DNA of 64,000 nucleotides from Rikenellaceae bacterium. GTDB lineage: Bacteria; Bacteroidota; Bacteroidia; Bacteroidales; Rikenellaceae. Below, one piece after another: positions 19,450 through 48,188 of this stretch. A program made the translations under genes and the position numbers. The notes below the pieces were generated by a model. That model worked only from the letters and a program-made list of their open reading frames with translations. It did not search any database and was not told where the DNA came from. Each line of letters opens with the position of its first letter. Position 1 is the stretch's first letter. The stretch covers positions 62,001 to 126,000 of the forward strand of contig WRDF01000005.1 in the NCBI GenBank assembly GCA_009783565.1, written 5' to 3'.

Positions 19450-20583
19450 TTAATTCTCCTGCGCTTTGTTAGCCTCATAGGATTTTTTATATTCCGCCAA
19501 ACAACTTCTGTAATAATTCAACCGGCCCGGATCGGTTTCATATCTTACTGCCGTTTCATGCAATTCTACCAGCATTTTCCTTCTGGCCTGTCTTTCTTCC
19601 GGAGTCAATGTTGCATGATCTTTAAACGTAATGGGTAAATGGACATTCAGGTAAACGAATTCCGTCATGTTCTGAGTGTCCAAGCCGGACATCAGATTAA
19701 TGGAATTATCCGATAAACCCGCATAATTTTTCTGCCTTATATTGTCGAAATTATTCTCGACCAGATCCGAAAATGCCGTTTTGTACAGAGGGTTCAAGTC
19801 GATCCTGTCAAGGTCTTTCCGCAGGTTATCGAATGTCTCCGGAGCATCCGTATCCAACCTTCGGAGTATACTGCTAAGCTGCCTGTTGGAAATGGCGGCA
19901 ATAAAATCAGTGTACTCTTTTTCACCCATGACTCCGGATACTTCCCGCCGATGATTCAGCATATAGACTATAATGAGCGACTCCGTGTTCCTGATATTGC
20001 TGTTATACAGTTCCATGTTCTCATTGGAGAATTTCTCATCTAAACTCTTCGAATCGAAATATTTGTATAGAGCATCGCGGGCCTTATCGGGCCTGCCGAC
20101 ATCATTGGCATATTTAATATATTCCGGGACGTAGGATACGGATACTAATTTCGCGTCCATGTATGCCCAGCTGTTTTCAAGTTTCAGCGCATTTTCGGTT
20201 TTTGCGATAAAGTCTTGGATGCCCCGCGAGCCGCCGACATATCTAGAATATTCCTCTCCGTTCCCGTCGATAAAGATAAATGTAGGGAGTGCCGAGACAT
20301 GATGATCTCTTACCAGATTTTCCGGATCGGCCACGTCGACATTATATTTCACTACGACCAGTCTTTCGTTGATGTAGTCTCCTGCCTCTTCGGTGGGAAA
20401 TACATCTCTTGCAAGCATCTGACATGGCCCGCACCAAGTGGCACAAACGATTATCATTACTTTCTTGTCGGTCGCCTTAGCCTGCGCGACGGCTTCTTTG
20501 AGCGAAATATCCTGAATATTCACCTGGCCCATTGCCGTGAGTGAACAAAATATCGCTATGATGAATAAAATCGACTTCCTCAT
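19450..20583 (-). CDS. secreted thioredoxin-family protein with long helical C-terminus
   Basis: 377 residues. Signal peptide 1-19 (ending in AMGQ), thioredoxin domain about 25-135 with CATWCGPC (C51, C54) and a cis-proline in ALPTFIFIDGNG, then about 240 mostly helical residues without a known domain. It is clearly related to two other proteins in this window (36882-37955 and both halves of 52445-53926): all share a KA-rich first helix, xxxxxFTxEEAGDYxN after the active site and PTFxxxDGxGE. It is the last gene of the first Sus-linked locus, 13 bases after the DsbD-domain protein gene. Its likely role is reducing or isomerising disulfides in the periplasm, with the partner proteins of that locus as possible substrates. 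Confidence 0.85.
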   Translation of the reverse strand: MRKSILFIIAIFCSLTAMGQVNIQDISLKEAVAQAKATDKKVMIIVCATWCGPCQMLARDVFPTEEAGDYINERLVVVKYNVDVADPENLVRDHHVSALPTFIFIDGNGEEYSRYVGGSRGIQDFIAKTENALKLENSWAYMDAKLVSVSYVPEYIKYANDVGRPDKARDALYKYFDSKSLDEKFSNENMELYNSNIRNTESLIIVYMLNHRREVSGVMGEKEYTDFIAAISNRQLSSILRRLDTDAPETFDNLRKDLDRIDLNPLYKTAFSDLVENNFDNIRQKNYAGLSDNSINLMSGLDTQNMTEFVYLNVHLPITFKDHATLTPEERQARRKMLVELHETAVRYETDPGRLNYYRSCLAEYKKSYEANKAQEN

Positions 20584-20596
20584 GCTTAAAAATATT

Positions 20597-22531
20597 TTAG
20601 CGACTGCTTCTTACCAAAGTGGTTCTCAGGCTGATAACTCTTTCCTCAGGCGGGAAGCATATCTGCGGGTCGCAACACTGGTATGAATATTTGATTACGA
20701 TATCCCCTGCTCCGACTCCTTCTATTGGCCTCACGAAGATGAATTCGCCATCCCATATCGTCGTGCCGGAACTGTTGTAATATTGCTCAGGAGGAGATAT
20801 CAGATTTCCGGTAAATCTGTATCCTTCGGGCAGCGTAATATCTATTTCCGTCGTGGTATACGGGTCTTCTTCTGAGACATATCCGTAAATATGATAGCCG
20901 GGATGAACCGCAAATTTTATGACGATCAACTGCTCTCCGCTGCACATGGTCGCAAGGCCTGCCCCCGCAGCCACCGGATTCCTGTGGTCGGTTCTGTTCA
21001 GCATTATGGCCTTCGATGCCGTATGGATTGCCTTGGCCCTGTAATCATTACCCTGAACGTCGGGGTCGAGAGTATTCACCATAAAATACCAGCCGCCGCT
21101 TTGGGAGAAGAATATCCGGGATTTGTTCGCCTCGTACCAATTCCGCCATTCTTTCGCCGTTTCGAATGTGCAAAGGGTGTATCTGTCGAGTATCCTGCGG
21201 GCCTTGTCCGCATCCTCGTTATTTTCGAGCATCGATATGGCCTTGTCCAGCAATCTTATATCGGTGTTAGGTATGCCCAGACTTTTGACATCTTCGTCGA
21301 CGATAAGTTTATAGAACATCGCAGCCCCATACAGATATGGAAAATTATCAAGATAGAATTTATGGTATTCCTCCGGGTCAGTTCCATATATATCGAACTT
21401 CTCTGCCGGCCTGAAACCGCGTCTGAGATAATCCTCAAAGGCCTGCGGCGCAGGCCGTCTGTAATTCAACATGATTGCCTCCCTTCCTACAAGAGGTTCT
21501 CCTCTGGCCTGTTTTTCAAGAGCCACTCTTTGCATAGCTTCATTTCCGGTGGCAACTTTATCGGCCAGTGTAAGTCCGTATTCGTAACCTTCACGGGAGG
21601 TAGAGTGGATGATCTCCTTTACGTATTCTTTCGTAGCCGCACGTTCGTAGAATTTCCGCGCGATGACTTCCTTGCCTTTCAGTGTCGAAGTATAGACCAC
21701 AGCATTTGCAAAGACCTGTTTCGCTTCGTCGGTCATGAAACCGGGCGAAGCCGAAAATCCCCAATAAAAATAGTTGCCGTGCCTGCCTATGGCCACCGCA
21801 TCGAGGGTTTTTTCGCACGTGCCGCTCGATATGAACTCACTGTCGGGAGAGTCGAGGAATCCCCAGGGCCGCGCGACCATTCCGATCCTGGCTCCCTGTA
21901 CTCCTCCCCTTAAAAAATGCTGCACTCTCCACATCGGCACGGTGTCCGGTATCGGGCCATCGTGATAATACGGGTAATTATATACCGCCTCTGGCGTGGG
22001 TTCTTCCGTTATCGTTACAGTCACCGGGAAAGGGCCTTTGAATATATGGTGATTCAGGTCGAAGTTGAGAGCATGATCCCACATGCAAAGGCAATACCAG
22101 TCCGTTTTCAGTCCTATTCCACTGCCCAGTCTCGAACCCATATCCGCCAATAACATAGCCGGATAAGCGAAACCGTCCGAAAGGTATCTCGCACTGTAAT
22201 AATTGACCTGATTCCCGTCACTGTCCAGTTCCTCTTTTATTTCTGCCGTCCGTTTTATCAGGCCGTCGAATATGGTCACGTCATATCCCGCCGACATATC
22301 CTCCGTGTAGTCCGCTCCCTGAACGACCGTGACGTGGGTAAAATATTGATTCAGATATTGCTCGAAGTCAGCCGTCCTTTGTATGGCGCTTTCGGCCTGT
22401 CTCTCGGCAGAAGCAGCGCTGCTCAAATTCGATGAACCCCCGACATACAATATCCTGAGGTTCTGTTTCGTCTGGCCGGAAACTTGCAACGAAACGATCG
22501 CAAACAGCGCCAGTAATAGATACTTTTTCAT
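20597..22531 (-). CDS. large secreted protein with DsbD alpha-like C-terminal domain
   Basis: 644 residues. Signal peptide 1-19. Residues about 24-190 begin LRILYVGGSSNLSS and include YDVTIFDGLI and LNHHIFKGPFPVTV, which resemble a ThuA/class-I glutamine-amidotransferase-like Rossmann domain without an evident catalytic triad. A helical middle (about 290-510) is unassigned. Residues about 530-644 read as the N-terminal DsbD domain: HPGYHIYGYV, PEGYRFTG and YQCCDPQICFPPEE, where C619 and C625 match the spacing of the DsbD alpha reactive pair and C620 is extra. DsbD alpha normally hands electrons to periplasmic oxidoreductases. Here it is fused to an unrelated domain and followed by a thioredoxin gene. 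It is a tandem paralogue of the next gene upstream. Confidence 0.65.
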   Translation of the reverse strand: MKKYLLLALFAIVSLQVSGQTKQNLRILYVGGSSNLSSAASAERQAESAIQRTADFEQYLNQYFTHVTVVQGADYTEDMSAGYDVTIFDGLIKRTAEIKEELDSDGNQVNYYSARYLSDGFAYPAMLLADMGSRLGSGIGLKTDWYCLCMWDHALNFDLNHHIFKGPFPVTVTITEEPTPEAVYNYPYYHDGPIPDTVPMWRVQHFLRGGVQGARIGMVARPWGFLDSPDSEFISSGTCEKTLDAVAIGRHGNYFYWGFSASPGFMTDEAKQVFANAVVYTSTLKGKEVIARKFYERAATKEYVKEIIHSTSREGYEYGLTLADKVATGNEAMQRVALEKQARGEPLVGREAIMLNYRRPAPQAFEDYLRRGFRPAEKFDIYGTDPEEYHKFYLDNFPYLYGAAMFYKLIVDEDVKSLGIPNTDIRLLDKAISMLENNEDADKARRILDRYTLCTFETAKEWRNWYEANKSRIFFSQSGGWYFMVNTLDPDVQGNDYRAKAIHTASKAIMLNRTDHRNPVAAGAGLATMCSGEQLIVIKFAVHPGYHIYGYVSEEDPYTTTEIDITLPEGYRFTGNLISPPEQYYNSSGTTIWDGEFIFVRPIEGVGAGDIVIKYSYQCCDPQICFPPEERVISLRTTLVRSSR

Positions 22532-22560
22532 GATATTTCTATTTTATCGATTGATCGGTG

Positions 22561-24069
22561 TTATTCGGCCCTGCGGGCTGCCTTAGCCCTGTAATTATTG
22601 CCCGGCTCATTGGGATCGAGCGTGTTCACCATAAAATACCAGCCGCCGCTTTCGGTGAAGAATATCCGGGATTTGTTCGCCTCGAACCAGTCACGCCACT
22701 CTTTCGCCGTTTCGAATGTGCAGAGGGTGTATCTGTCGAGTATCCTGCGGGCCTTTGCCACATCCTCGTTCCTTTCGAGCATGGATATGGCCTTGTCCAG
22801 CAGTCTTATGTCGTTGTTCGGGATGCCCAGACTCTTGACATCCTCATCGACGATAAAGTCATAGAATATCAGAGAACCTGCGTACAGATAGGGTAAGTTA
22901 TCGGTGTAAAATCTGCTATACCCCTCCATGTCGTTACCCCATCTCTCGAATTTATCTCCCAACGCTCTTCTGAGAAAATCCTCATAAGTCTGAACCGGAG
23001 GCCGTCGATAACCTATAATAGATCGTTCTCTTCCTACAAGAGGTTCTCCTCTGGCCTGTTTTTCAAGAGCTACCTTGAGTATAGCTTCATTACTGTCAGC
23101 AACCGCAGCGGCTCTGGCTATCTCCACATTGTAATGATCTCTGGTGGCGAAATACAACATCTCGTCCACGTATTCTTTCGTAGCGACCCTGTCGTGATAT
23201 TTTCTTGCAATAACTCTCTCCCCTTTCAGCGTCGAAGTATATACCACGGCATTTGCAAAGACCTGTCTCGCTTCATCGGTCATAAAGGGTGGGGAAGCTG
23301 AAAATCCCCAGTGAAAATAATTGCCGTGCCGTCCTATTGCAACTGCCAAAGGGCTTTTTTCGCACGTGCCGCTCGATATGAACTCACTGTCGGGGGAGTC
23401 CGTGAATCCCAACCACCTTGAAACCAATCCGATCCTGTTTCCCGACCCCTGTTGTCCTTCTAACCTTAAAAAATGCTGCACTCTCCACATGGGCATCGTA
23501 TCGGGGACATTGCGGTTTGGGAAGTAGGTTACGTAAATGCTTGCCGCATCGGGCGTAGGTTGATGTTCAACGGTTATCCGTACAGGGAACGGGCCTGCAA
23601 ATATCTGGTGATTCAGGTCGAAGTTGAGAGCATGATCCCAAAGACAAAGACAATAATGGTCGAATTTAAGGCCTATCGGAACTCCTAACAGAGGGCTCGT
23701 GTCCGCCAACATCATAGCCGGATTAGCGAAATCTTCCGAAAGATATTGTGCATCTCTGCCTGATCCGGATATCGGGGTTATCGCACCGTCGAATATGGTG
23801 ACATCGTAACGGGCTGACATATTCTCCGTGTAGTCTTTCCCCTGAACAACTCCGACATGGGTAAAATATTCATTCAGATACGCCTCGAACGCGGCCGTTC
23901 TTTGTCTGGCGCTTTCGGCAGTTCTCTCGGTCTCGGCAGCAGAACTACCGCGACCGCCGCCCAAATTTGCTGAACCACCGACGTACAATACCCTGAGGTT
24001 TTGTTTTTCATGTGCGAAAACCTGCGACGAAACGAGCGCAAATAATGCCAAGACTAGTATTTTTTTCAT
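22561..24069 (-). CDS. paralogue of the DsbD-domain protein, C-terminal domain absent
   Basis: 502 residues. Signal peptide 1-19, then the same ThuA-like region (LRVLYVGGSANLGG, YDVTIFDGAI, LNHQIFAGPFPVRI) and helical middle as the 644-residue neighbour, with long identical stretches such as KARRILDRYTLCTFETAKEW. Homology runs to NTLDP and YRAKA, then this copy stops after AARRAE, so it lacks the whole DsbD alpha domain. Only 29 bases separate the two genes. Base-level similarity continues up to the stop (gccctg...ccttagccctgtaattattgcc), which points to a tandem duplication followed by C-terminal loss in this copy or domain gain in the other. Function unknown. Confidence 0.7.
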   Translation of the reverse strand: MKKILVLALFALVSSQVFAHEKQNLRVLYVGGSANLGGGRGSSAAETERTAESARQRTAAFEAYLNEYFTHVGVVQGKDYTENMSARYDVTIFDGAITPISGSGRDAQYLSEDFANPAMMLADTSPLLGVPIGLKFDHYCLCLWDHALNFDLNHQIFAGPFPVRITVEHQPTPDAASIYVTYFPNRNVPDTMPMWRVQHFLRLEGQQGSGNRIGLVSRWLGFTDSPDSEFISSGTCEKSPLAVAIGRHGNYFHWGFSASPPFMTDEARQVFANAVVYTSTLKGERVIARKYHDRVATKEYVDEMLYFATRDHYNVEIARAAAVADSNEAILKVALEKQARGEPLVGRERSIIGYRRPPVQTYEDFLRRALGDKFERWGNDMEGYSRFYTDNLPYLYAGSLIFYDFIVDEDVKSLGIPNNDIRLLDKAISMLERNEDVAKARRILDRYTLCTFETAKEWRDWFEANKSRIFFTESGGWYFMVNTLDPNEPGNNYRAKAARRAE

Positions 24070-24156: not shown

Positions 24157-25233
24157 TTATCTTCCGAGAAGTCTCTCTAATTTCTCATCCAATTCTTCGC
24201 CCTTTATGTTTTTTGCGATAATGATGCCGTTCGGATCAAGCAACACCGAGTGCGGAAGGCTCGAAACATTATAACGTATTGCACCTTCGCTTCGGATATA
24301 TTTCAAATCCGACATTTGCGGCCAGTCAGGCATGTTCAGTTCTTTCATACCGTTAGCCCATGTCTCATGATCTCTGTCGAACCAAATGCCGACAATATTA
24401 AACCCTTTGTCTTTGAATCTGTTATAAGTTGCGATCATGTCCGGTTTTTGCGCACGACACGGGCCGCACCAAACAGCTGTAAAATCAAGGAGTACATAGT
24501 CGCCTTTTCCGGCAAAATCGGAAATGGCAATTTCTTTCCCGTTGACATCGGGCATCCGAAGATCAACGAACCGTTGTCCGATAGCCGTTTGTTCTATTGC
24601 CTGAACGTAGTCTACAATTCTTACCACTTCGGGCACTCGCAAGGTTGCAGGGGTTGCATGGGCGATGATTTCTTTCAGCTGTTCAATCGGCAGACTACTC
24701 CTTAGATTATTCAATTGACTCTGACCGGCGGGATTGTTGATGTTGTTTTTTGCAAATTCTATTCTGAGTTCTTGCAGTTCATCGACGTATTTGCGAGACT
24801 CTTCCTCAGATGATGATGCTCTTCTTTTCCGTTGAAGAATTAGTTCGGCATCCAAAAACGCTTGAAGAATGTCATTGTTTTTTGTTCCTGAAACTCTGCT
24901 GTCCCCTTCTGCATCAGTGGTTATGTTGATTCTTGCATTTTCAAGAATCACGTTGTGATGCAGAGGAGAAGACATCCGCCCTGTTCGGGGATCGGCCAGA
25001 TTCAACCGGACATTAGTAGGTGCTTTGACAGAGCCCGTAAACGTATAGGTTCCATCAACAATCAGGGCTGAATCCATTGTGAGCATTTGTCCATCTATGA
25101 ATTGGATCATTCTGACTTGTGCACCCTCCATTTCATGGTTGGCTACGGTGCCGGTAATGGTGAAGGTGGTTTCTTGTTGTTTGCAAGCAAAAAATGTCAA
25201 TGCTGCAACAGCGATAATCAAGATATTTTTCAT
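24157..25233 (-). CDS. DUF4369-TlpA thioredoxin lipoprotein
   Basis: 358 residues. Lipobox FFAC puts the lipidated cysteine at 17. Residues 22-110 are a beta-rich DUF4369 domain (FTITGTVANHEMEGAQV, GTYTFTGSV). A helical linker follows, then a TlpA-type thioredoxin from about 222 with WCGPC (C256, C259) and HSVLLDPNGIII. This two-domain form is common in Bacteroidota. It should be tethered to a membrane facing the periplasm and act as a thiol reductant. It lies in the first Sus-linked locus between the PKD-like lipoprotein and the tandem paralogues, after a perfect hairpin. Confidence 0.88.
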   Translation of the reverse strand: MKNILIIAVAALTFFACKQQETTFTITGTVANHEMEGAQVRMIQFIDGQMLTMDSALIVDGTYTFTGSVKAPTNVRLNLADPRTGRMSSPLHHNVILENARINITTDAEGDSRVSGTKNNDILQAFLDAELILQRKRRASSSEEESRKYVDELQELRIEFAKNNINNPAGQSQLNNLRSSLPIEQLKEIIAHATPATLRVPEVVRIVDYVQAIEQTAIGQRFVDLRMPDVNGKEIAISDFAGKGDYVLLDFTAVWCGPCRAQKPDMIATYNRFKDKGFNIVGIWFDRDHETWANGMKELNMPDWPQMSDLKYIRSEGAIRYNVSSLPHSVLLDPNGIIIAKNIKGEELDEKLERLLGR

Positions 25234-25320: not shown

Positions 25321-27000
25321 TTAGATGAAGACAATGTCTTTGATAGCGCCGAATTTCCGGCCGTCCGCACTGACGGTATGCCGCTGAACTGTCGGGAAAC
25401 CGCCGTGCATTCCTTCTTCGGCTCTGCCTGCGCTGTTGAGAACCAACACTACCAGTTCACCGCTGCCGTCAGGCATATTGTACGCTATCCCCAGAGTACG
25501 ATCCAGAGGGAATATTGCATCCGGATAATTCGACCCGATATCTCTGTTAGAAGAAGTATCATCGGCAAATTTAAGTGCTATTGGCGTTGCTCCTGGATCA
25601 GGATGCTGCCAGATCAACGTTGGCTGCGATTCCGCCAAAGCAAAATCGAGCCTGTATATTTTGTTGTCGATAGCATAGAACAATATACGATTGTATTCTA
25701 TACTGCTGGCCATAAGTGTATTTCCATCGACTCCGGCGGGAGTATCGATAACGTAATATTCGGTGAACGGAGCAGGGTCCGAATTATCGCCGACAGTAAG
25801 CATCGGACGTGAGTGGAACACGAATATATGAGATTTCGGTGTGTCACGATTGACGGCGTAAGCATACATCGTATAGCGCTGCCAGGGTGCAGTGTTGTTA
25901 AATCCCAGGTAATGTCCCGATCCCATATACACCATCTGCTTATCGGACCCTATATTATTAGGATCGATCGACTGATTGTTCAAAGGAGTATTTCGTATCC
26001 TCTCTATTCTACCACGCGTCATATCGGGAATTCCCGACCAACCGACCCATGTAGTGTTGTCGCGCGTGTAGAGTTGAAGGAAACGGTTGTTAAGTCCGTC
26101 AAATAACAGATAGCTTTGTGACACCATAGCTATATGTGAAATGTAGAAGTCAGGGCTATCTTCGGCTGCGGCATTATCAAGTACAGCTCTGCCCATCGCT
26201 CCCGAATTATTTGCTCCCTGAAACACATATCCGTTACTGGCGATAACTCCTCCCCCTATCATACGGCGACAACCGTATATTTTTGCGGGGTCGAATGAAG
26301 CCAAATCCACAGGGAACATACGCTGAGTATTTGCCACGAGCCTGAAATTATCATCCTGTGCAAGCATCCCGCTCTCTTCCGGATTGGAAGTAAACGCAAA
26401 AAATGCAGTGAGCGAACTGTTGCCCTGTTTAGGACTATAAGCATGAAATACTCCGAGGCTGTAACCGGTGCCGGAGAGCCTGTGTCCCGTTTTGGAGTAA
26501 TAAGCATCGTTATCGATCACCATGTCATTGCCGAGGTATTCCAACGAAGCTATACGAGAAATGCCTTCCTGGTGGTGGAGTATCATCCATGCGCCTTCAT
26601 ACGGTTTCGCGATACGCAATTCGGTAAAGAACATTTGCTCGATTCCTGTCAGCACGTCGGTAATATACAACCTGAAAAAGCGGTTATATCTGAAATTGGC
26701 TTCCGCAGGATCGATCACTATATTTATATGATCGTCAGTACCGAACTCCGTACCTTTCTCGTTGGGGTTATCGCTGACAAACCAGGCGAAACTAAGGTTA
26801 TCGGTTCCTGTGTAGCGAGACTGTTCGATAGTGGGTGTGATCGTGAACGTCTGGGCTTCCATACGTGTTCCATAAACACTTCTCATCACGACATTAATAT
26901 CATTTACCGAATAGTCGTAGTCGTAATTCCCCTTGTCTTCGTAACAGGAGAATGCCAACATTGTGATCACGGATAACACAAATATTTGTTTTGCATTCAT
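25321..27000 (-). CDS. PKD-like family lipoprotein
   Basis: 559 residues. The signal ends at a cysteine (LAFSCYEDKGNYDYDY, C19); CYxDKGNYDY is the recognisable opening of the PKD-like lipoproteins that accompany some SusCD pairs. An Ig/PKD-type domain of about 120 residues (VVMRSVYG to LRIAKPYEG) is followed by a large beta-rich domain likely to be a propeller (repeats such as ESQPTLIWQHPD). No catalytic motif is seen. It should sit on the outer membrane surface beside SusD and help bind the imported ligand. Counterpart in the second locus: 37982-39562. Confidence 0.8.
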   Translation of the reverse strand: MNAKQIFVLSVITMLAFSCYEDKGNYDYDYSVNDINVVMRSVYGTRMEAQTFTITPTIEQSRYTGTDNLSFAWFVSDNPNEKGTEFGTDDHINIVIDPAEANFRYNRFFRLYITDVLTGIEQMFFTELRIAKPYEGAWMILHHQEGISRIASLEYLGNDMVIDNDAYYSKTGHRLSGTGYSLGVFHAYSPKQGNSSLTAFFAFTSNPEESGMLAQDDNFRLVANTQRMFPVDLASFDPAKIYGCRRMIGGGVIASNGYVFQGANNSGAMGRAVLDNAAAEDSPDFYISHIAMVSQSYLLFDGLNNRFLQLYTRDNTTWVGWSGIPDMTRGRIERIRNTPLNNQSIDPNNIGSDKQMVYMGSGHYLGFNNTAPWQRYTMYAYAVNRDTPKSHIFVFHSRPMLTVGDNSDPAPFTEYYVIDTPAGVDGNTLMASSIEYNRILFYAIDNKIYRLDFALAESQPTLIWQHPDPGATPIALKFADDTSSNRDIGSNYPDAIFPLDRTLGIAYNMPDGSGELVVLVLNSAGRAEEGMHGGFPTVQRHTVSADGRKFGAIKDIVFI

Positions 27001-27044: not shown

Positions 27045-27821
27045 TTAAGGCCGGAATACAACCGGATTCCCATTTTCATCCGTCAGCGGATTACCCGGAT
27101 TATCTCTGTTATAGCGGAACAAAGCGTCTTCGAGATCGCCTATCACATAGCTTGGCCAGACCCCGCCGCGTCTGACATCGGCGACGTAATCCGGCAGCCC
27201 GTTAGGATACCAGCGTCTCAGGGTTGCATCGTTACCCACCATGAAACGTACTTTTATAGACGACGGTGCGCCGATCAGAGGCGCCAGCCATTCGTTATAT
27301 GTATCGAGCGTGATTTTGAGATACTTGTCCGTTCCCCATTCATAAATAAAGCTGTCGTCAGCGGTTATCGTGAATTTACTGCGCTCCATTATGCCCGGTT
27401 CCAGACCGGACGCTTCATAGTCGATAACAATATTGCCTCTGAAAGTTACCCCGCCATTCGCCGGACGGTTAATCCGAAAATACAGTTTAGCGGTATAGCT
27501 GTTAGCCGGAATCACCGGATCGCTTATAAATACGACATCCGGAGAGGCGAACCCTTCGACCGGTTCGATATCGAGCTTAACCGTCAGGTCTTTTGAAATA
27601 GCCATGCCCTGAATACGCACCTCGACACTGTCGAGAATGGAAGGGTTGTAAACAGAAGTGAAATCGTAGGCTTTTGCAAACGTGTTATTCTCATCGCCGC
27701 CAACAGATACGAATACAACCCGCGTAGCTTCGTTATACCTGAATACTTCCTCTTCCGTACATCCGGCTATAACCAGCGGCAGGAAAGCAAACAGCGCGAT
27801 TTTTACAAATATATTTTTCAT
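27045..27821 (-). CDS. DUF4843-family lipoprotein
   Basis: 258 residues. Signal with IAGC gives a lipid anchor at C21. ATRVVFVSVGGDENN and the regular alternation of beta strands match the DUF4843 type, which in this phylum is found between SusD and PKD-like genes. The C-terminal part (KYLKITLDTYNEWLAP, SYVIGDLEDALFRYNRDNP) is typical of the family's second half. It begins 14 bases after the SusD stop. Inferred role: accessory surface lipoprotein of the uptake complex. Confidence 0.78.
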   Translation of the reverse strand: MKNIFVKIALFAFLPLVIAGCTEEEVFRYNEATRVVFVSVGGDENNTFAKAYDFTSVYNPSILDSVEVRIQGMAISKDLTVKLDIEPVEGFASPDVVFISDPVIPANSYTAKLYFRINRPANGGVTFRGNIVIDYEASGLEPGIMERSKFTITADDSFIYEWGTDKYLKITLDTYNEWLAPLIGAPSSIKVRFMVGNDATLRRWYPNGLPDYVADVRRGGVWPSYVIGDLEDALFRYNRDNPGNPLTDENGNPVVFRP

Positions 27822-27835
27822 AGGTCAGAGATTTA

Positions 27836-29287
27836 TTAGTTGATTAAACCCAGAACTGCTTCGTCTTCCGGAATAGCAAAACGGTAGTTTGCATCGGTCA
27901 GATCCGGCAGTGTCGTCGGATACCCCGTAAAACGCCTGTAAGCATGGCGTTTGTAGAAATACCAAAGCTGCCCTTCGGCATAAAATTCCTTGCGGTACTC
28001 TTTCTCGATAGCAGCTATACGCTCAGCTTCATTTTGGAATGGAGATACCGTATTGATACCGCGTGCTACCCGTACCAGATTGATATGGTGTGTGGCTTCC
28101 GGCAGGTCGGAGGTACATTCGGCTACTATATAGTGCATCTCAGGCAGACGGACCAGCGGCATCGTATTCAGGACAGAAAACGAAAATGCGCGCGTTTGAT
28201 CGTATTTCAATGTCATAGCGCCCGTAGTGCCTAACAGGAATCCTTGTCCCTCGCGCAGGCGCATATCATTGCGTCCGTCTACGGTTACATCGAAAATATT
28301 GTAGACAAAATCACTGGAAGAACAGTAATAATTACCCATCATCCATATCCTGAAATCTGCGGCCACCTGCACATCGAAATCCTTCATACTTAGCGAGAAG
28401 ATCAACTCCGTGGACATGACCCTGTCCTGAGTATTATCGGTTACCAGTCTGAACATCGGATCGGAATTCGGTCTTCTCGCATTGATAACCTCTCTTGCAT
28501 ACTTCAAGGCATTTTCCTTATCGTTTTTGTACATATACACCCTTGCCAGCATGGCTTTCACGGCATATTTGTTCAAACGTTTGAAGCGGAAATCCAGAAA
28601 TCCTCTATGTGTATATACCGAAGTGGGGAAAACGAGATTCATAGGATCATTTTCCAGTAATTCTTCGGCGAGTTTAAGATCGGCAATAATTTTTTCGATG
28701 ATCTGATTCGCAGATTCCAAAGGGAGGTCTTCGCGCTTCAATGCGCTGCGGTAGATGATCGATCTGTCGGCGGGGTTATTCATATATATCGGTCCCCACA
28801 TACGCAGCAGGTCGAAATGCATAAATGCCCTAAGTCCATATGCTTCACCTTTTATGATATTGTAATACCCTTCGGTGAAAGTCACTTCATGGCCTTTCTC
28901 GTCTAACCAGTACAGCAGGTTATTGATATTGGCGATCACATTGTAACCGTCTCTCCATATAGCATTGGTTCTACTTTCATTATGAGTAGAAGGAAACTGG
29001 TAGTTAAGAGGGCTTGTATAGTCGATGGAGTAAATAGAAGGGCTGGGACGGTAACGTTGGGCCAATCCGTCGATCAGTCCGTAAGTCAATTCACGACCAT
29101 ACAGAGAAGTCTTGTTCATGGACATGTAGATGCCGGTAAGGGCTTCTTTGTAGCCTTGTTCTTTCGAGAACAGTAATTCTTCACTGACAGCAACCTTAGG
29201 TTGAACGTCGAGCCAGTCTCTGCACGAAGCAAAGCCCAGGCAAAGAATCGTAAGGAAAAGTATCCGGATATTTATTATTCTTTTCAT
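27836..29287 (-). CDS. SusD/RagB-type surface lipoprotein (locus 1)
   Basis: 483 residues. Lipobox FASC gives a lipid anchor at C22, followed by RDWLDVQPK, the standard SusD start. TPR-like helices with LLFSKEQGYKEALTGIY and KGEAYGLRAFMHFDLLRMWG, and the C-terminal YRKEFYAEGQLWYFYKRHAY, are family hallmarks. SusD lids the SusC channel and captures the ligand outside the cell. It lies 14 bases after the SusC stop. The ligand cannot be read from the sequence; no glycoside hydrolase accompanies it. Confidence 0.95.
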   Translation of the reverse strand: MKRIINIRILFLTILCLGFASCRDWLDVQPKVAVSEELLFSKEQGYKEALTGIYMSMNKTSLYGRELTYGLIDGLAQRYRPSPSIYSIDYTSPLNYQFPSTHNESRTNAIWRDGYNVIANINNLLYWLDEKGHEVTFTEGYYNIIKGEAYGLRAFMHFDLLRMWGPIYMNNPADRSIIYRSALKREDLPLESANQIIEKIIADLKLAEELLENDPMNLVFPTSVYTHRGFLDFRFKRLNKYAVKAMLARVYMYKNDKENALKYAREVINARRPNSDPMFRLVTDNTQDRVMSTELIFSLSMKDFDVQVAADFRIWMMGNYYCSSSDFVYNIFDVTVDGRNDMRLREGQGFLLGTTGAMTLKYDQTRAFSFSVLNTMPLVRLPEMHYIVAECTSDLPEATHHINLVRVARGINTVSPFQNEAERIAAIEKEYRKEFYAEGQLWYFYKRHAYRRFTGYPTTLPDLTDANYRFAIPEDEAVLGLIN

Positions 29288-29301: not shown

Positions 29302-32300
29302 TTAGAATACGAGGTTTAAGGACATCGATACCGAATTTGTGAACGGATAATTGATACCGCGCTCCATTTTGATAGTCGACAAACGGCCCATATCCTCCAT
29401 GTATAATCCTACGGATGCACTGCTCAGCCCCATACGTTTGATGAACGGATTGAAGCGGCTTTCGAAACGGTATTGAAGGTTGATCGTAGAGAGTACGAAT
29501 TCGTTGTTATTCATCACGAATCTGGAAGATGCTCTTGTACTTTGCCCTGCGGCGGCGGTGGAAACCCCTTTGAATGCAGTCAGTTCACCCTGGCTCTGCC
29601 AGCGTTCGGTCAATGCACGGCGGTCTACGTTGTAACGGAGATTTGCATTTTCCACTTTGTCTATCAAAGTTTGATTGAAAAGCTGCCCGCCGAACTGGTA
29701 TCTGTTACCCATTGTCAGGCTGAAACCTTTCCAGTTTACGTTAAGGTTCAAACTTCCGCGTAATGTCGGTTCCGTATCTCCATACGGTATCTGATCCATG
29801 CTGTTGTATATATTGGTCATCCGACCGTCACGGGTAAGGAATACTTCCCTCCCGTCGTAAGGATCGATACCCAGCGACTTCACGACCCAGATGCGGCTCA
29901 TCGAATAGCCTTCTTCGTAACGCGGGAGAGGGCGATCTGTCGTGCTGTTACGCGATTCTTCGTTACGCACGCGCAATGCGTTGGAAATACTGCGGATCGT
30001 GTTCTTGTTGTGACCTCCCATCGCGACGATAGAAACATTCAAACGCCGGGCAGGGTTATTATACGGCATAACACGCAAGGTAACCTCATAGCCTTCGTTG
30101 GAGATATTTCCCATATTATCGACAATCTCGGTGAAACCGATAGAAGGTGCCAGCGAGAAATCGAGAAGGGTATTTTTAGTGTATTTATAGTAATACTCGA
30201 AACGTCCGCTAAAAATACGATCGAACAAAGTGAAATCGAGTCCGAGGTTGTAATTATCGGTTTTCTGCCATTTCAGATCGGGATTACCCAGAGATCTTAT
30301 TACCGTACCGAGAACATCCGAACCGTTATAAACATACATCATATTGTCGTATGTGTACATTTGCAACGCCTGATAGGGGGTGAAACCCTGCGAACCCGTG
30401 ATACCGTAAGTCCCGCGCAGCACGAGTTCGTTGATGATCTTGGAATCTCTCAGGAAATTTTCATTATGGGCATTCCAGCGAAGACCTGTCGTCCAGAAAG
30501 GTGCAAAGCGGTTATTGCGTCCGAATTCGGACGAAGCGTCGATCCGTCCGCTGAAATCGAATGCATAGCGCCGGTCGTAGGAATAGCTGACCGTTCCGAC
30601 CGTGCCTATCGAACGATAGGTGCTCTCGCTGCCCGTAGGATCATTCGCTCTCGCCCCGAGGAATATATCATCCATATTTTCATTCGGGAAACCGGTAGCG
30701 AAATTGTTTGCGATACGAACTTTACGCTGGTTTATCTCGGCGCGCGCAAAAACAGCCAGTAAGTGTCTGCCGAACATCTTATTATAGCTGGCCATGAGGC
30801 TCGTATTGAAGCTGTCGGAAGTATTGTGAGTCCAACTGTAAGAGCCTCTGAGTTCCGGGGTCAGGAAAGTAGCAGAGCCAAATGAAGAATGTTCTGCGGG
30901 CAGGAATACATCGGTGTCCGATGAAATCCTGCTGATAGTCGCATCGAATGTCAGGCGTAGATTCTCCGTCACCAGATACTCTGCTCTGAATATATTACGT
31001 ACTTCGAAAGCCTTATTCTGATTTTTCTGTTTCAGCAGACTGTCCCAGGCGGGGTTCTCCATACCGCCGCTACCGCTGTACTCCATACCGAAGTTATAGT
31101 ATGTTTCCAGATAACGCTGCATGTTTCCGTTCAGGTCATAGTAACGGTAATATGGGTTCATACGGGCATATTCGGTAAAATTTCCGTACGGAGAAGTACG
31201 GTTGCTTACAGTGTGGTCTACGAACATTACATTCGACACCAGAAGCCCTTTGTAGCGATAACGCAGGTCGATACTTCCGCTTTTGCCTTCGACGCCGGTT
31301 TTCTTCATCACACCCGGAGCGCTGTTCACTCCGAAGTATAACTTATAACGAAGAGTATTGTCTCCACCCTCCAAATTAAGACCGTGACGATGATTGAATG
31401 CCGACGTCAAAGGTTTCGCCAACCAGTAAGTATCCACACCGCGCAGTACATCCAGCATGCGGAATCTGTAATCATTATATAAACGATTGATCGCTGCCGG
31501 AGTGGTTCCTGCTTCATAAATGCCGGCATTCTTTTCTAGTTGCAGTTTTTCTGCGGCATTAAGCAGATTATAACCGTTAAGGTTCGGCGCCAGGTATTTG
31601 TAATTACCATTATAAGACACCCGCAGCGAACCTTGTTGAGGAGATTTTGTTTCGACCACGACGATACCGTTCGCACCCCTCGATCCGTAGAGAACCATGG
31701 CCGCTGCATCTTTGAGTACGGTAACACTTTGAACCTGGGCCGGGTCTAAGTCTATGATCTTCGTTACCTCTACTATCATACCGTCGAGCACGAACAGGGG
31801 CTGATTGGGGTGTGTATCCAGATCACCGCGAAAGATAACATCTCCGTCTGTGGAGTAGTCGCCCATATTCGATTGTCCGCGCATTTGAAACTGCGGTATG
31901 ACCGAAGGATTCGATCCGTACATATTATTTACATCCATTCTGAACCCCGGATCGAGCATCTCGACCGCACGAAGGATATTACCCGAGCTGAGGCTGCTTA
32001 ATTCCTCACCTGAAATCGTATTTGACGATCCGGTAAAACTGTCCCTACGACGATCGAAGATTCCGGTCACCACGACCTCTTGGATGGCGGCGGCGACATC
32101 TTTCATCGTAACCGTAATCTCAGGCTGTCCGGTATAAGCGACCTCGACAAGCTCTTTTCCGATAAATGAAAACACCAGTATCGCTCTGTCGGCAGGTGGC
32201 ACCTGCAAGGTAAAGTTTCCGTTAGCATCCGTTATTGTTCCGCCTCTCATACCTTTCAGTGCAACGGTCACACCAATGATAGGTGTGCCGTCGGGTTCAG

Positions 32301-32727
32301 TGACTTTACCCCGAACAACTGCGGCTTGCGGTGTCTGGACGCGGGGTGTCTGGACGTGTGGAGTCTGGGCACGACCGATAGATACGGTGTCCTCGTCGAT
32401 CTTGTAAGTAAATCCGTTTTTGACCAGGATTTCATTAAGGATCTCGTTGATGTTTGCCTGCCTGAGATCGATCGTGACGAAAACATCCTGCGGAACGACT
32501 CCATCGAAATAGAAAAAATGATAGCCGGTCTGTGTTCTCAGGTCTTCCAGCACTTTTACAAGCGAAACCCTCTCGTATAGCACGTCGAGTTTCGTCTGCT
32601 GGGAGTAGGTCTGTGAGGCCGACAAAGTCCCGACCGAACAGAGCAAAACGATGAGTTTGAGCTTCATGAAGAAAAGAATTTTTCTCCACGTCCCGGACGG
32701 GAAATGGCAGTAGTTAAAATTTTTCAT
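29302..32727 (-). CDS. SusC/RagA-type TonB-dependent transporter with STN domain (locus 1)
   Basis: 1141 residues. A basic, hydrophobic N-terminus (cleavage near 40) is followed by an STN signalling domain at about 47-119 (LRTQTGYHFFYFDG, LNEILVKNGFTYKI), a QTPHVQTPRVQTPQ repeat linker, a carboxypeptidase-regulatory-like beta domain (about 138-210), a plug starting IQEVVVTGIFDRRRDSFTG, and a 22-strand barrel ending in NSVSMSLNLVF with terminal phenylalanine. The STN domain lets the transporter signal through FecR to the ECF sigma factor. It lies downstream of fecR on the same strand, with the hairpin at 32750 between them. An internal ATG at codon 21 is a possible alternative start. Confidence 0.95.
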   Translation of the reverse strand: MKNFNYCHFPSGTWRKILFFMKLKLIVLLCSVGTLSASQTYSQQTKLDVLYERVSLVKVLEDLRTQTGYHFFYFDGVVPQDVFVTIDLRQANINEILNEILVKNGFTYKIDEDTVSIGRAQTPHVQTPRVQTPQAAVVRGKVTEPDGTPIIGVTVALKGMRGGTITDANGNFTLQVPPADRAILVFSFIGKELVEVAYTGQPEITVTMKDVAAAIQEVVVTGIFDRRRDSFTGSSNTISGEELSSLSSGNILRAVEMLDPGFRMDVNNMYGSNPSVIPQFQMRGQSNMGDYSTDGDVIFRGDLDTHPNQPLFVLDGMIVEVTKIIDLDPAQVQSVTVLKDAAAMVLYGSRGANGIVVVETKSPQQGSLRVSYNGNYKYLAPNLNGYNLLNAAEKLQLEKNAGIYEAGTTPAAINRLYNDYRFRMLDVLRGVDTYWLAKPLTSAFNHRHGLNLEGGDNTLRYKLYFGVNSAPGVMKKTGVEGKSGSIDLRYRYKGLLVSNVMFVDHTVSNRTSPYGNFTEYARMNPYYRYYDLNGNMQRYLETYYNFGMEYSGSGGMENPAWDSLLKQKNQNKAFEVRNIFRAEYLVTENLRLTFDATISRISSDTDVFLPAEHSSFGSATFLTPELRGSYSWTHNTSDSFNTSLMASYNKMFGRHLLAVFARAEINQRKVRIANNFATGFPNENMDDIFLGARANDPTGSESTYRSIGTVGTVSYSYDRRYAFDFSGRIDASSEFGRNNRFAPFWTTGLRWNAHNENFLRDSKIINELVLRGTYGITGSQGFTPYQALQMYTYDNMMYVYNGSDVLGTVIRSLGNPDLKWQKTDNYNLGLDFTLFDRIFSGRFEYYYKYTKNTLLDFSLAPSIGFTEIVDNMGNISNEGYEVTLRVMPYNNPARRLNVSIVAMGGHNKNTIRSISNALRVRNEESRNSTTDRPLPRYEEGYSMSRIWVVKSLGIDPYDGREVFLTRDGRMTNIYNSMDQIPYGDTEPTLRGSLNLNVNWKGFSLTMGNRYQFGGQLFNQTLIDKVENANLRYNVDRRALTERWQSQGELTAFKGVSTAAAGQSTRASSRFVMNNNEFVLSTINLQYRFESRFNPFIKRMGLSSASVGLYMEDMGRLSTIKMERGINYPFTNSVSMSLNLVF

Positions 32728-32812: not shown

Positions 32813-33889
32813 TTATTTGGCGCTCTTTATGTTTATCCGATTGCCTTTTATGTCGAATCTGGCTTCCCCGGAGGCTTCGATCAAGTTCAATATCTGGGAA
32901 ATATCGTTTTTTACGGACATCGTACCGCGGGTTAGCAGACTTTTAATGCTTTCGTCTTCAAAAGCAAACTCTATATCATATATGCGCGCCAGTTTCGTCA
33001 TCATCTGTTCGAGTGTATTGCCCTCGAAAACGATAACATTTTCGCGCCATGCCGCCATGTCCGCCACCTTTACCTTATGCTGCGTGAACTGATCGGAATC
33101 GAGGTTCAGTCGTGCCTGCATTCCCGGAACAAGAGTGATTTCGGCATGTGTGCCGACGGTTTTGAGTGATACTTTCCCTTCGATGAGGGTTGTGTAGATC
33201 ACACCGTCGTCTTTGTATGCCGATATATTGAACCGCGTTCCGAGTACGGTCAGTACCTGCCTGTTCGTTTCGACGATAAACGGTTTTTCGGCGTCGGGAG
33301 CTACATCGAAGTATGCCTCTCCCTCTACGAAGACACGCCTTTCCCCGCCGGAAAAAACAGCCGGATAGCGGAGGTACGAATCGGCATTCATCCATACGCG
33401 TGTCCCGTCTTCGAGGACAATGTCGAATTTGGCTCCCCTGGGCACTTCCAGTCCGTAATAGCGCATATCCGCAATATCGATGGCGGCATCTTTTCTCCGC
33501 ATTAACAGAGTGCCATCTTCCTTTTCCAGCATAACATCGATTTCGTCGGCAATATGTCCGGTCCTGGTATCATCCAAAACGACCTCACCGCCGTCGGGCA
33601 TTATGAGTCTCGGAATGCCAGTATGCCGGACTATTACGCCGTCTTCCGCAGGATTGTCCGTATAGAGCCATACCCCGACCGCCGCCAGCAAAAGCGGGAC
33701 GGCTATGGCTGCGACGTTGCGCAGCAATAATCTTCTTCGCCGACGAAGGTGTTTTTTCCGTATCGTATTGCCGACTCTTTCATATAGTCCGACGTCGTCG
33801 ACTCCGTCCATGATCTCGATAGTCCTGAGGATATCTTCCAACTCTTCATCGGTTCGGCAGTACCTGTCTTGTGATTCGATCTTATTCAT
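32813..33889 (-). CDS. FecR-type anti-sigma factor (locus 1)
   Basis: 358 residues. A cytoplasmic N-terminus rich in acidic residues, an arginine block (KKHLRRRRRLLLR), one membrane helix (about 57-75), the FecR domain (PRGAKFDIVLEDGTRVWMNA, GGERRVFVEGEAYFDV, VLGTRFNISAY, LIEGKVSL) and a C-terminal DUF4974-type domain (LEQMMTKLARIYDIEFAF). It binds the STN domain of SusC in the periplasm and controls the ECF sigma factor. It is divergent from the sigma gene at 33983 and upstream of its susC. Confidence 0.93.
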   Translation of the reverse strand: MNKIESQDRYCRTDEELEDILRTIEIMDGVDDVGLYERVGNTIRKKHLRRRRRLLLRNVAAIAVPLLLAAVGVWLYTDNPAEDGVIVRHTGIPRLIMPDGGEVVLDDTRTGHIADEIDVMLEKEDGTLLMRRKDAAIDIADMRYYGLEVPRGAKFDIVLEDGTRVWMNADSYLRYPAVFSGGERRVFVEGEAYFDVAPDAEKPFIVETNRQVLTVLGTRFNISAYKDDGVIYTTLIEGKVSLKTVGTHAEITLVPGMQARLNLDSDQFTQHKVKVADMAAWRENVIVFEGNTLEQMMTKLARIYDIEFAFEDESIKSLLTRGTMSVKNDISQILNLIEASGEARFDIKGNRINIKSAK

Positions 33890-33982: not shown

Positions 33983-34537
33983 ATGCGTAAGCGCACGAAT
34001 GATAAGTTCGGATTATTGAGCGATTCTTTCGAATCTCTATTCTTTACTTATGCCAAAGGGCTTGTGGCCTATGCCGTGGAATATTTGCACAGCAAGGAGG
34101 ATGCGGAGGATATCGTACACGATTGTTTTGTGAACCTTTGGGAGAAAATCGATAATATCGATCCTGAAAAAGTGAGAGGTTATCTTTTCAACGCCACCCG
34201 TAATATGTGCATCAATCACCTGTCACACCGTAAGGTCCGGTCACAGTATCAGGAAAAAATAATAGCCGGGGACATATCTCCGGCGAAAGATAATACGGAC
34301 TTTTATGTGGAATCTGAATTGCGCCGGATACTGGACGAGGCCATTGCTGCAATGCCGCCTCAGCGCAGGCAGGTCTTTATCAAGAGCAGGCTCGAAGGTA
34401 AATCGGCTGATGATATTGCCGCAGAAATGAATATTGCACGACGGACCGTTGATAAACACATCCAGATATCATCGAAAGAGATCAAAGAATATATCATTAA
34501 ATATATGTATGCCCTGATCGTCTCCGGTATAATTTAA
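33983..34537 (+). CDS. ECF-type RNA polymerase sigma factor (locus 1)
   Basis: 184 residues. Region 2 is at about 13-75 (FFTYAKGLVAYAVEYLHSKE, AEDIVHDCFVNLWEK), region 4 at about 112-170 (MPPQRRQVFIKSRLEGKSAD, IARRTVDKHI), the layout of the Bacteroidota sigma-70 family 1 group. It should be held inactive by the divergent FecR and activate the susC operon when the transporter is loaded. Start chosen at the ATG just after the TAnnTTTG box. Confidence 0.95.
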   Translation: MRKRTNDKFGLLSDSFESLFFTYAKGLVAYAVEYLHSKEDAEDIVHDCFVNLWEKIDNIDPEKVRGYLFNATRNMCINHLSHRKVRSQYQEKIIAGDISPAKDNTDFYVESELRRILDEAIAAMPPQRRQVFIKSRLEGKSADDIAAEMNIARRTVDKHIQISSKEIKEYIIKYMYALIVSGII

Positions 34538-36881: not shown

Positions 36882-37955
36882 TTATTGAAGTGCTTTTTCT
36901 AAATTTTCTAAACTTCCGGCATAACTTTTGAAGGCAGCTGCCTGTTCGGTCAGAAACTTCCTTATTTTAGCTTTTTGCTCTTCGGGCAGATCTTTAACTT
37001 TCGGATTTTGAAATACATTCCTTGCCATAAAGTAAGTGTCGCGATCTAATCCCCGGGCCATGCTTATGGCGGAAAAGTAATCGGCTGCCGCTCCATAGTC
37101 GTCATCGTTTATCATCAGTGCAATCCTTCCAATATATGCCATATTCGGCCATCTGGGGTTGCTTACTATTGCGAGAATCTGCGCTGCTTTTTCTATATCC
37201 TGCTTCGGCATTTTCCTCTGTCCTCTTACCACGGGATTGAGATATTCCACATAAATACCCCTGATTAAATCGTTTATTTTATATGCGCCCAAACGCCATT
37301 CGGCCTCCGGTCTATTCAACAGGATATCGTCAATAACCGGATCGGATATGGGCAGGTTGACCATGGCGGTTCTCAACAACTCCTCATTGTACTTGTGCGA
37401 CGGCCGCAGGAAATAAATTTCTCGTATAATATCGTGCGCCTCATCGTTGTAACCGGCATTTTTCAGGTGGCTCATATATTCCAACCCGTTCTCCAGATTT
37501 TTATTCTGCATATAATTCTCTCTGGATTTGTCCAATATATCCGGATCCGTCACCGGGCGGAATTGGGCTATGAATGACCTTATATCCCTTTCGAATCCTA
37601 TCTGCTTTTTCAGCACTTCGCCGTCACCGTTAAGCACCAGGAAAGTAGGGTATACGGTGGCTCCGTACTTCTTCGCTATTTCGGGACCACCCTCATCATT
37701 TACAACATCTATTTTGAAGCTGACGAAACGAGGGTTGAAAAAATCGCCTGCTTCTTTAGTCGTGAAGAGATTTTTTTGCACCCATATACATGGTCCACAC
37801 CCTTGGTAGTAACAGTCAAGAAATACCAATTTATTCTCACTTTTAGCCTTCGCGATGACCTGCTCCAGCGTTAACCCTTGTTCGAATATTATTCCCTGAG
37901 AGTAGCAGTTTAGGCTTATTGTTACGGCCGCCAACAACATCAGTAATTTTTTCAT
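36882..37955 (-). CDS. secreted thioredoxin-family protein (locus 2)
   Basis: 357 residues. Signal peptide 1-19 (ending in CYSQ), thioredoxin domain with DCYYQGCGPC (C53, C56) and VYPTFLVLNGDGE, then a long helical tail. It is a paralogue of the thioredoxin that closes locus 1. It is the last gene of the second Sus-linked locus, 26 bases from the PKD-like gene. Inferred periplasmic thiol oxidoreductase acting with the uptake system. Confidence 0.85.
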   Translation of the reverse strand: MKKLLMLLAAVTISLNCYSQGIIFEQGLTLEQVIAKAKSENKLVFLDCYYQGCGPCIWVQKNLFTTKEAGDFFNPRFVSFKIDVVNDEGGPEIAKKYGATVYPTFLVLNGDGEVLKKQIGFERDIRSFIAQFRPVTDPDILDKSRENYMQNKNLENGLEYMSHLKNAGYNDEAHDIIREIYFLRPSHKYNEELLRTAMVNLPISDPVIDDILLNRPEAEWRLGAYKINDLIRGIYVEYLNPVVRGQRKMPKQDIEKAAQILAIVSNPRWPNMAYIGRIALMINDDDYGAAADYFSAISMARGLDRDTYFMARNVFQNPKVKDLPEEQKAKIRKFLTEQAAAFKSYAGSLENLEKALQ

Positions 37956-37981
37956 ACTTTTAATGTTTGGTCGTTCGATGA

Positions 37982-39562
37982 TTACATTGATTTCAGATTA
38001 ACGTCATAAATGCGTCCAAAACCGGTGAACGTTCTATGCGACTCGGCTTGCCCCGTCATGTTATCGATCATTATTGCATGGAGTGTACCGACGCCATTTT
38101 CGTAAGTACCTACAAGCATCATTCTGTTGGCGCGATGATAAGCAGATATGCCTGTAAATACAGGAGACTTTAGAATCTTCATCATTGTAATTTCTCCGGT
38201 GAACGGAACCTGTTCAGCGCCCACCATCAGTTTCCGTGCGTCGCTCGTCCCGCTTTCCCGCAGTACGGCATACTGATAAACAGCCGTGCTTGTGGCATAG
38301 TAGCAAGTACTGCTGTTCGCACCGACTGCGTGGAATTTTGCCGATTCAAATTCCGGAAGCCGCGATATATTGTATTTGGCAACCGCGAAAGCGTTTGCGT
38401 CTGACGTATTTGCTGCATTGAAATTGATTTCGCCAAGAAATATGGTCCCATCATCTTCCTGGAATACGCCAAGATGATTACCACTCGCACCTATTCCGAT
38501 GTTGTCGAGATAGAGCAAATCCGCCTGCATATTTGCCGGATTGAACGGTCCCCAGCCGGCAGAATTAATGATAGTGGGGGCGACCTCGCCAACAGTTGTA
38601 AGACTGGCACGTATAAAACCTCTTGTGTTCTCGTCGAAAATCAAGCCCTGCAGATTCTGATTCACTATAAAACTGTGTTTTGAGGCTTTTAGGTTCGGCC
38701 TTCCGGTAAAAACTTTTGGTATAGAGAATCTGGAATTCGCTAAGCCGGTTGAAACAAATAAAACACCGTCATCTATAACGCATCTGTTGTTGTTGTTGTA
38801 GAATTGGATTTTTTGCAGATTGCCATTATTCAAGGAAGGCGAAGTTGGAGTTGAATAGAACAAATCCATATAATCGCCTTTTTTCACCATACCTTCCGCT
38901 CCTGCAAACAGCGCTGCCTGATCAGTTCTTATAAAAATATTGCACGTTTCGATTGGTACTACTCCGCCAGTCATGTGCTGCTGTATTATAAAAACTCCCC
39001 TGCCCGGTATTTTTGCTCCGTTGACAGAAGAATAACTGTTATAGACAATTCTTTCCTCGATCTGAGCATTGGCACTTACAAGGAAATGGCGGTCCATGAT
39101 AATTCCTATATCGCTTTCGGTATCGTTGCCGTGCAGCACCATAAGACCCAGATCACCGCCGCTGATAGTAATGGTAATCAGCGAAGAGTACATGCTATGG
39201 GTATGGCCGTCAATCTCCCTCGATACTCTAAGCCTGACACTATAACTCCCGAATGTAGGGAAATAATTATCAGGTCTTATAATGAAGTCGAAATCCCTAC
39301 CCTCGCCGAATTCTCTAAACCGGCTGTTTTCATCGAATATTTCCCACATGTACTTCAGTTCGGATTCGGGAACATCGGAAGTAACCGTTACGGGAATTAT
39401 GAGATGCTGACCCATTTGAACCAGATATGTGTGAATACCTGATGAAACAGTAACGACAACATTCCCGATATCGGTGTAGTCGTAGTTGCCCTTGTCTTTA
39501 TAGCAGCCGGTTGAGCCAAATGTCATAGCTGCCAAAATCATATAACAAAATATCTTTTTCAT
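37982..39562 (-). CDS. PKD-like family lipoprotein (locus 2)
   Basis: 526 residues from the ATG at 39562; an in-frame TTG three codons earlier is less likely. Lipobox STGC (C20) followed by YKDKGNYDYTD, the family opening. A PKD-like domain follows (ESELKYMWEIFDENS), then a beta-rich region. It has the same position as the PKD-like gene in locus 1, but the large domain differs enough to suggest different ligands. Starts 14 bases downstream of the DUF4843 gene. Confidence 0.8.
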   Translation of the reverse strand: MKKIFCYMILAAMTFGSTGCYKDKGNYDYTDIGNVVVTVSSGIHTYLVQMGQHLIIPVTVTSDVPESELKYMWEIFDENSRFREFGEGRDFDFIIRPDNYFPTFGSYSVRLRVSREIDGHTHSMYSSLITITISGGDLGLMVLHGNDTESDIGIIMDRHFLVSANAQIEERIVYNSYSSVNGAKIPGRGVFIIQQHMTGGVVPIETCNIFIRTDQAALFAGAEGMVKKGDYMDLFYSTPTSPSLNNGNLQKIQFYNNNNRCVIDDGVLFVSTGLANSRFSIPKVFTGRPNLKASKHSFIVNQNLQGLIFDENTRGFIRASLTTVGEVAPTIINSAGWGPFNPANMQADLLYLDNIGIGASGNHLGVFQEDDGTIFLGEINFNAANTSDANAFAVAKYNISRLPEFESAKFHAVGANSSTCYYATSTAVYQYAVLRESGTSDARKLMVGAEQVPFTGEITMMKILKSPVFTGISAYHRANRMMLVGTYENGVGTLHAIMIDNMTGQAESHRTFTGFGRIYDVNLKSM

Positions 39563-39576
39563 CTTGATCAAAGTTT

Positions 39577-40293: not shown

Positions 40294-40305
40294 ATTCGTT
40301 TGCAT

Positions 40306-41793: not shown

Positions 41794-41813
41794 TTTGTGT
41801 CGTTTTTAATTGG

Positions 41814-45239: not shown

Positions 45240-45330
45240 ACTTTTGAAATGGATTTGTAGTTTAACGTCTGGTGCTAACAGACAAATTGCAATTTCAGGT
45301 GGGGGAATTGACCGTTCCTCCACTTTTTGT

Positions 45331-48076: not shown

Positions 48077-48112
48077 AAAACACCTGGCAATCGATTGATT
48101 GTCAGGTGTTTT
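48077..48112 (-). terminator. intrinsic terminator of tRNA-Asp
   Basis: Read on the minus strand, AAAACACCTG and CAGGTGTTTT plus inner CAATC/GATTG arms form a long stem with one mismatch and a 4-base loop, followed by CTTTTTG. It begins right at the encoded CCA end of the tRNA. Confidence 0.85.
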
Positions 48113-48188
48113 GGCGGTATGGACGGGACTCGAACCCGCGACCCCCTGCGTGACAGGCAGGTATTCTAACCAACTGAACTACCACACC
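48112..48188 (-). tRNA. tRNA-Asp (GTC)
   Basis: The 77-base minus-strand sequence folds as a cloverleaf: acceptor GGTGTGG/CCATACC with one G-U pair, D-arm with AGTTGGTTAGA, anticodon stem CCTGC/GCAGG around CTGTCAC (anticodon GTC, aspartate), T-loop GGTTCGAGTCC and discriminator G followed by an encoded CCA. Its 3' side abuts the mobilization remnants, a common integration position. Confidence 0.96.

Follow-up and report, generated by a model that had tools for sequence, protein, structure and literature searches.

A DsbD-alpha domain fused to a ThuA-like protein in a SusC-SusD cassette of a Rikenellaceae bacterium: a possible reductive relay

The window analysed here, a 64,000-nucleotide stretch of contig WRDF01000005.1 from a Rikenellaceae bacterium, encodes two secreted proteins in tandem, which we call LONG and SHORT. 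Their coordinates and parts, with the evidence behind each, are as follows.

20597-22531, minus strand: LONG, a 644-residue secreted protein with a ThuA-like front, a helical middle and a C-terminal DsbD-alpha domain (open reading frame, Pfam DsbD_N, predicted fold)
20615-20989, minus strand: LONG residues 515-639, DsbD-alpha (nDsbD) domain (PF11412, VIA-align 2)
20657-20677, minus strand: LONG C619-C620-x4-C625 (CCDPQIC) (translation, E. coli alignment, comparison of DsbD_N motifs)
21002-21634, minus strand: LONG residues about 300-510, helical middle (secondary structure of the predicted model)
21674-22465, minus strand: LONG residues 23-286, predicted ThuA/GATase1-like fold (VIA-align 2 structure match)
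22085-22093, minus strand: LONG C147-x-C149, the invariant C-x-C of the ThuA-like domain (19/19 aligned copies, translation)
22561-24069, minus strand: SHORT, a 502-residue sister paralogue without the DsbD-alpha domain (open reading frame, alignment, tree, predicted fold)
23221-24003, minus strand: SHORT residues 23-283, predicted ThuA-like fold (VIA-align 2)
23644-23652, minus strand: SHORT C140-x-C142, equivalent of LONG C147/C149 (alignment of copies, translation)

The first-pass annotation of this DNA had described tandem secreted paralogues sharing a ThuA-like front and a helical middle, and both points stand. The two proteins show 66% identity across 515 alignment columns, group as sisters with support of 100/100 in a tree of 19 copies, and are both predicted to have a ThuA-like front and a helical middle. 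Both start like signal peptides, and by eye neither N-terminal sequence contains a lipobox cysteine; they are therefore probably not on the surface, and from these sequence features we place both, provisionally, in the periplasm. SHORT stops right at the domain junction, 29 bases before the start of LONG, and most likely lost its DsbD-alpha domain following a local duplication, since 18 of 21 loci elsewhere carry the fusion. The dN/dS ratio between the pair is 0.25 (492 codons), so both look maintained, which speaks for SHORT being functional.

The pair sits in a SusC-SusD (SusCD) cassette with the following neighbours.

19450-20583, minus strand: Thioredoxin_7 (Trx_7) protein, 377 residues, secreted, 13 bases downstream of LONG (Pfam, E 4.3e-14)
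24157-25233, minus strand: TlpA/AhpC-TSA-type thioredoxin-fold protein with DUF4369 (Pfam)
25321-27000, minus strand: PKD_2 protein of the SusCD cassette (Pfam)
27045-27821, minus strand: protein in the DUF4843 position, itself without a Pfam match (position compared with the DUF4843 gene at 39577-40305)
27836-29287, minus strand: SusD-like protein (Pfam SusD-like_3)
29302-32727, minus strand: SusC-like TonB-dependent receptor (Pfam)
32813-33889, minus strand: FecR anti-sigma factor (Pfam)
33983-34537, plus strand: ECF-type sigma factor (Pfam)

Because the gaps between SHORT and LONG and between LONG and the Trx_7 gene are only 29 and 13 bases, these three genes are likely on one transcript. 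A second cassette of similar layout and the same orientation (SusC-SusD-DUF4843-PKD_2-Trx_7) lies at 36882-45323; it lacks TlpA, SHORT and LONG, ends in a Trx_7 gene and contains no DsbD alpha. GC content is 0.42-0.49 over 14001-48000, against 0.53-0.56 on either side, and the low stretch stops near a tRNA-Asp gene at 48112. We considered an island bounded by this tRNA and rejected it: for neither end of the tRNA (48112-48188) does the window contain another exact copy at least 14 bases long.

The front of LONG and SHORT has no Pfam or NCBIfam match, and no ThuA match at E 1. The family is thus unclassified; it is a fusion of known folds within a known kind of cassette. The predicted structures (LONG, pLDDT 88 and pTM 0.82; SHORT, pLDDT 86) nevertheless support a ThuA-like fold. 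In VIA-align 2, LONG 23-286 matches 4jqs_A with Z 12.3 (3.5 A over 194 residues) and 4pxy_A with Z 12.0, and the SHORT front matches 4jqs_A (Z 12.4), 1t0b_A (12.1) and 2gk3_E (11.9), the first four structure matches of SHORT being 4jqs, 1t0b, 4pxy and 2gk3. These ThuA-like structures outscore the next-placed amidotransferases by about 1-2 Z. The likeness to the ThuA-like proteins (BACUNI_01602, 4jqs/4pxy; 1t0b; STM3548, 2gk3) is one of predicted fold at Z about 12, whereas sequence identity is only 7-11%, and LONG differs from them in its invariant C-x-C and long helical extension. Both cysteines of this motif, C147 and C149, are kept in 19/19 aligned copies, SHORT among them, and K142, H161, D227, E232, K241, R250, N253 and W257 are likewise invariant. 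Judged by strand and helix order only, the GATase nucleophile elbow would fall near residues 128-130, where there is no cysteine, while C147/C149 lie on the next strand; the model thus does not favour either as a GATase nucleophile.

In the C-terminal end, the evidence for a DsbD-alpha domain comes from three sides. Pfam DsbD_N (PF11412) matches LONG alone of the pair, at residues 532-635 (E 9.6e-7, 29.3 bits, above the gathering cut-off of 25 bits), as anticipated from the sequence by the first-pass annotation. The predicted model has the immunoglobulin-like nDsbD fold, and LONG 515-640, compared with DsbD alpha as that annotation had proposed, matches 1vrs_C with Z 10.3 (2.3 A over 104 residues), 5nhi_B with 10.1 and 1jpe with 9.9 (VIA-align 2). 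In Foldseek, ScsB and DsbD alpha domains come top at E about 1e-5, the best match being the N-terminal domain of ScsB (6c29), practically level with ordinary structures of DsbD alpha. Since adaptin ear domains reach similar scores, the fold alone is no proof of DsbD alpha; the gap is filled by the Pfam match together with a profile match to the solved DsbD alpha 1l6p (E 1.6e-6). Taken together, Pfam, profile and predicted fold support the assignment.

The place of the cysteine pair is also that of DsbD alpha. C620 and C625 align, in this order, with the two active cysteines of E. coli DsbD alpha (C103/C109) and stand one residue closer together, giving C-x4-C where E. coli DsbD has C-x5-C. Both are conserved in 17/17 aligned domain copies, and C-x4-C occurs in all 47 distinct motifs among 51 DsbD_N domain matches from other Bacteroidota loci; the motif pattern itself required C-x4-C, yet every domain match had it. 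By alignment, the canonical pair is therefore C620/C625 and C619 is the extra cysteine, which reverses the earlier assignment of C619/C625 as the pair with C620 extra. The extra cysteine at 619 is found in 15/17 family copies but in only 5/47 other DsbD_N motifs, and a further one at 613, where LONG has isoleucine, in 13/17 against 1/47.

Unlike in DsbD, the domain lies at the C-terminus of the chain. DsbD_N is the only Pfam match in the 644 residues, and the transmembrane beta domain (DsbD_TM) and the thioredoxin-like gamma domain are not in the LONG chain, in keeping with the earlier description of a DsbD alpha domain away from beta and gamma and beside thioredoxin-fold genes. By itself this is not unusual: Bacteroidota often have a DsbD alpha domain outside DsbD, and the class-wide profile search returned many frames of about 150 residues; such small DsbD_N proteins and fusions, however, have no ThuA-like front with C-x-C. 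On contig C3 of the window's own genome, a separate 129-residue DsbD_N protein (L004:1471-1860) lies just upstream of a TlpA/DUF4369 gene (L004:323-1466) that is seemingly split over two frames. On contig C15, one 525-residue frame at the contig end (L052:15303-16880) joins FG-GAP, FecR-like and DsbD_N parts, a further DsbD_N fusion of an unusual kind.

We searched for the architecture in other genomes, as the first-pass annotation had suggested. With LONG as query, 10/200 genomes of the family and 7/393 of the order matched, the window's own in both, and the contig scan matched Bacteroidia bacterium MS502-39 and Mucilaginibacter aquaedulcis. A class-wide profile search matched 254/395 genomes, but outside the window's genome the matches listed cover the DsbD_N end only, and a phylum-wide search with the Mucilaginibacter copy matched 1/395 genomes, which was the window's own. 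The comparison of loci covered 21 from other genomes, L040 and L041 being taken as one broken gene. In local profile scans, DsbD_N lies in the same chain at 18/21 loci, and SusC and SusD lie upstream on the same strand at all 19 loci having upstream sequence; part of the training set of the SusD profile came from these same loci, but Pfam confirmed SusD in 10/10 tested. The LONG-type gene comes immediately after SusD at 13/21 loci, and copies from genus g22 begin LAGCSSSG-like, a lipobox-type start.

All three loci lacking the fusion belong to a single genome, G413, which has short forms only. At two of them (L046 and L051) a separate DsbD_N gene lies downstream on the same strand; at the third (L049) the short form is broken by a stop, and the examined stretch contains no DsbD_N gene. 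The split in G413 against the fusion elsewhere indicates that the two parts go together, whether as one chain or two. Joint action of the two parts is what this pattern favours, but it says nothing about the direction of electron flow, and the conservation would also suit metal binding or a structural role. In total, G413 has 19 DsbD_N matches (e.g. in L046:176-6650). Four of these fall within a single stretch of 11 kb, close to a short form and to TlpA and FG-GAP genes. A possible electron source is widespread: DsbD_TM was found in 15/16 carrier genomes, where the one without a match is 59% complete, and in 13/13 at completeness of at least 90%, and the window's genome has a separate, complete DsbD gene with all three domains.

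The adjacent thioredoxin gene had been taken as a hint that the DsbD-alpha domain is a thiol acceptor. The gene is there, but its adjacency is weak evidence. Counting an AhpC-TSA (TlpA-type) gene no more than 8 kb downstream of SusD on the same strand, 9/18 SusD genes in the window's genome have one nearby, the window's cassette included, as do 4/11 in genome G421 among the matches listed. Thioredoxin-fold neighbours are thus a general trait of SusCD cassettes in these genomes, and these counts, together with the Trx_7 gene of the second cassette, led us to drop adjacency as proof of partnership. At the 21 loci elsewhere, local profile scans found no Trx_7 neighbour; TlpA lies on the same strand at nine and divergently beside SusC at six (15/21 in all; Pfam confirmed 10/10 tested) and is absent from the examined stretch at the other 6/21.

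In the DsbD cascade, DsbD alpha has the known role of periplasmic hub. We propose that LONG would be a periplasmic accessory protein of the SusC-SusD uptake cassette. Its C620/C625 would receive electrons from the gamma domain of DsbD, the membrane reductase of this genome, or else from a thioredoxin resembling gamma, for which the neighbouring Trx_7 protein is a candidate. From there the electrons would go on to the C-x-C in the ThuA-like front of LONG itself and, in trans, of SHORT, with the cassette's TlpA-type thioredoxins as further possible acceptors; the reduced C-x-C might act on, or bind, whatever the SusCD pair imports. E. coli DsbD alpha gets electrons from the gamma domain (cDsbD) and reduces DsbC, CcmG and DsbG (PMC7347389), and CcmG-like TlpA genes lie at 15/21 of our loci. 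Against such a relay stand SHORT and the G413 copy L049, which have no DsbD alpha of their own, and the extra cysteines C613 and C619, which a simple relay leaves unexplained. The architecture, cysteine conservation, cassette context and presence of DsbD are computed observations, while the direction of flow, the partners and the role of the C-x-C are our inference; as a whole we advance the relay tentatively, at a little under even chances. The earlier idea of a free-standing thiol acceptor survives in part: the domain is probably a thiol-exchange module, but it is not free-standing, because it is the C-terminal part of a conserved chain made of two parts, the front of which carries an invariant C-x-C of its own.

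The same cysteines could instead serve metal handling. On this reading, the C-x-C, H161 and the CC-x4-C cluster would be ligands for a soft metal (copper, zinc, iron or a metalloid), the SusCD pair would move a metal complex, and the DsbD-alpha fold would be a metal site or a keeper of reduced thiols, as in ScsB and copper-tolerance proteins. The invariance of C147, C149 and H161 in 19/19 copies fits this, as do the enrichment of cysteines at 613 and 619 relative to other DsbD_N motifs and the first rank of 6c29 in Foldseek. Yet the lead of 6c29 over ordinary structures of DsbD alpha is negligible, the added cysteines are not universal, and Pfam recognised none of the cassette genes examined as a transporter or regulator of metals, so that we regard metal handling as unlikely.

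The front might also bind carbohydrate, with the C-x-C and the DsbD-alpha domain mainly structural or for quality control. A place directly after SusD is usual for surface glycan-binding proteins, and LONG-type genes often hold it (the 13/21 above). Structure matches point the same way: 7cbe turns up for both models and 1t0b for SHORT. In a SusCD-associated protein of Bacteroides, the domain that binds levan is similar to the ThuA-like 1T0B and the transferase 7CBE (PMC7618045), so that a glycan may be the ligand here too. That protein of the Bacteroides levan utilisome shares with LONG a ThuA-like fold and the SusCD link, but it binds glycan at the cell surface and contains Ig-like domains (PMC7618045), whereas LONG has no lipobox and carries DsbD alpha. 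LONG and SHORT are probably not on the surface, an invariant C-x-C would be unusual in a binding domain, and the conserved DsbD-alpha pair would stand idle; glycan binding as the main role is thus improbable in our judgement. That the DsbD-alpha domain mainly reduces the cassette's TlpA or Trx_7 protein, the ThuA-like part being a mere carrier or docking part, is more doubtful still: the TlpA-type gene beside 15/21 loci, the Trx_7 gene 13 bases from LONG and the reduction of TlpA-like CcmG by E. coli DsbD alpha (PMC7347389) are in its favour, but TlpA adjacency is little above the SusD-gene background in these genomes, 6/21 loci have no TlpA in the examined stretch, and the invariant C-x-C, kept even in SHORT, is left unexplained.

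The relay from DsbD through the DsbD-alpha module to the C-x-C of LONG and SHORT is thus the reading we prefer. In the literature searched, no paper was found linking SusCD uptake to DsbD or thioredoxin reducing power, and the ThuA-DsbD-alpha architecture was not named (titles and abstract openings). A bolder extension, which we hold with considerable doubt, is that this branch of SusCD systems has its own reductive relay and that the imported nutrient is processed or released by periplasmic thiol chemistry; if true, nutrient uptake by that branch would depend on cytoplasmic reducing power. Being part of a single chain in most lineages and separate in one, the module offers a testable partner pair. 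The conserved family, with its DsbD alpha hard-wired to a ThuA fold in SusCD cassettes, suggests a need for reducing power in some uptake systems of Bacteroidota.
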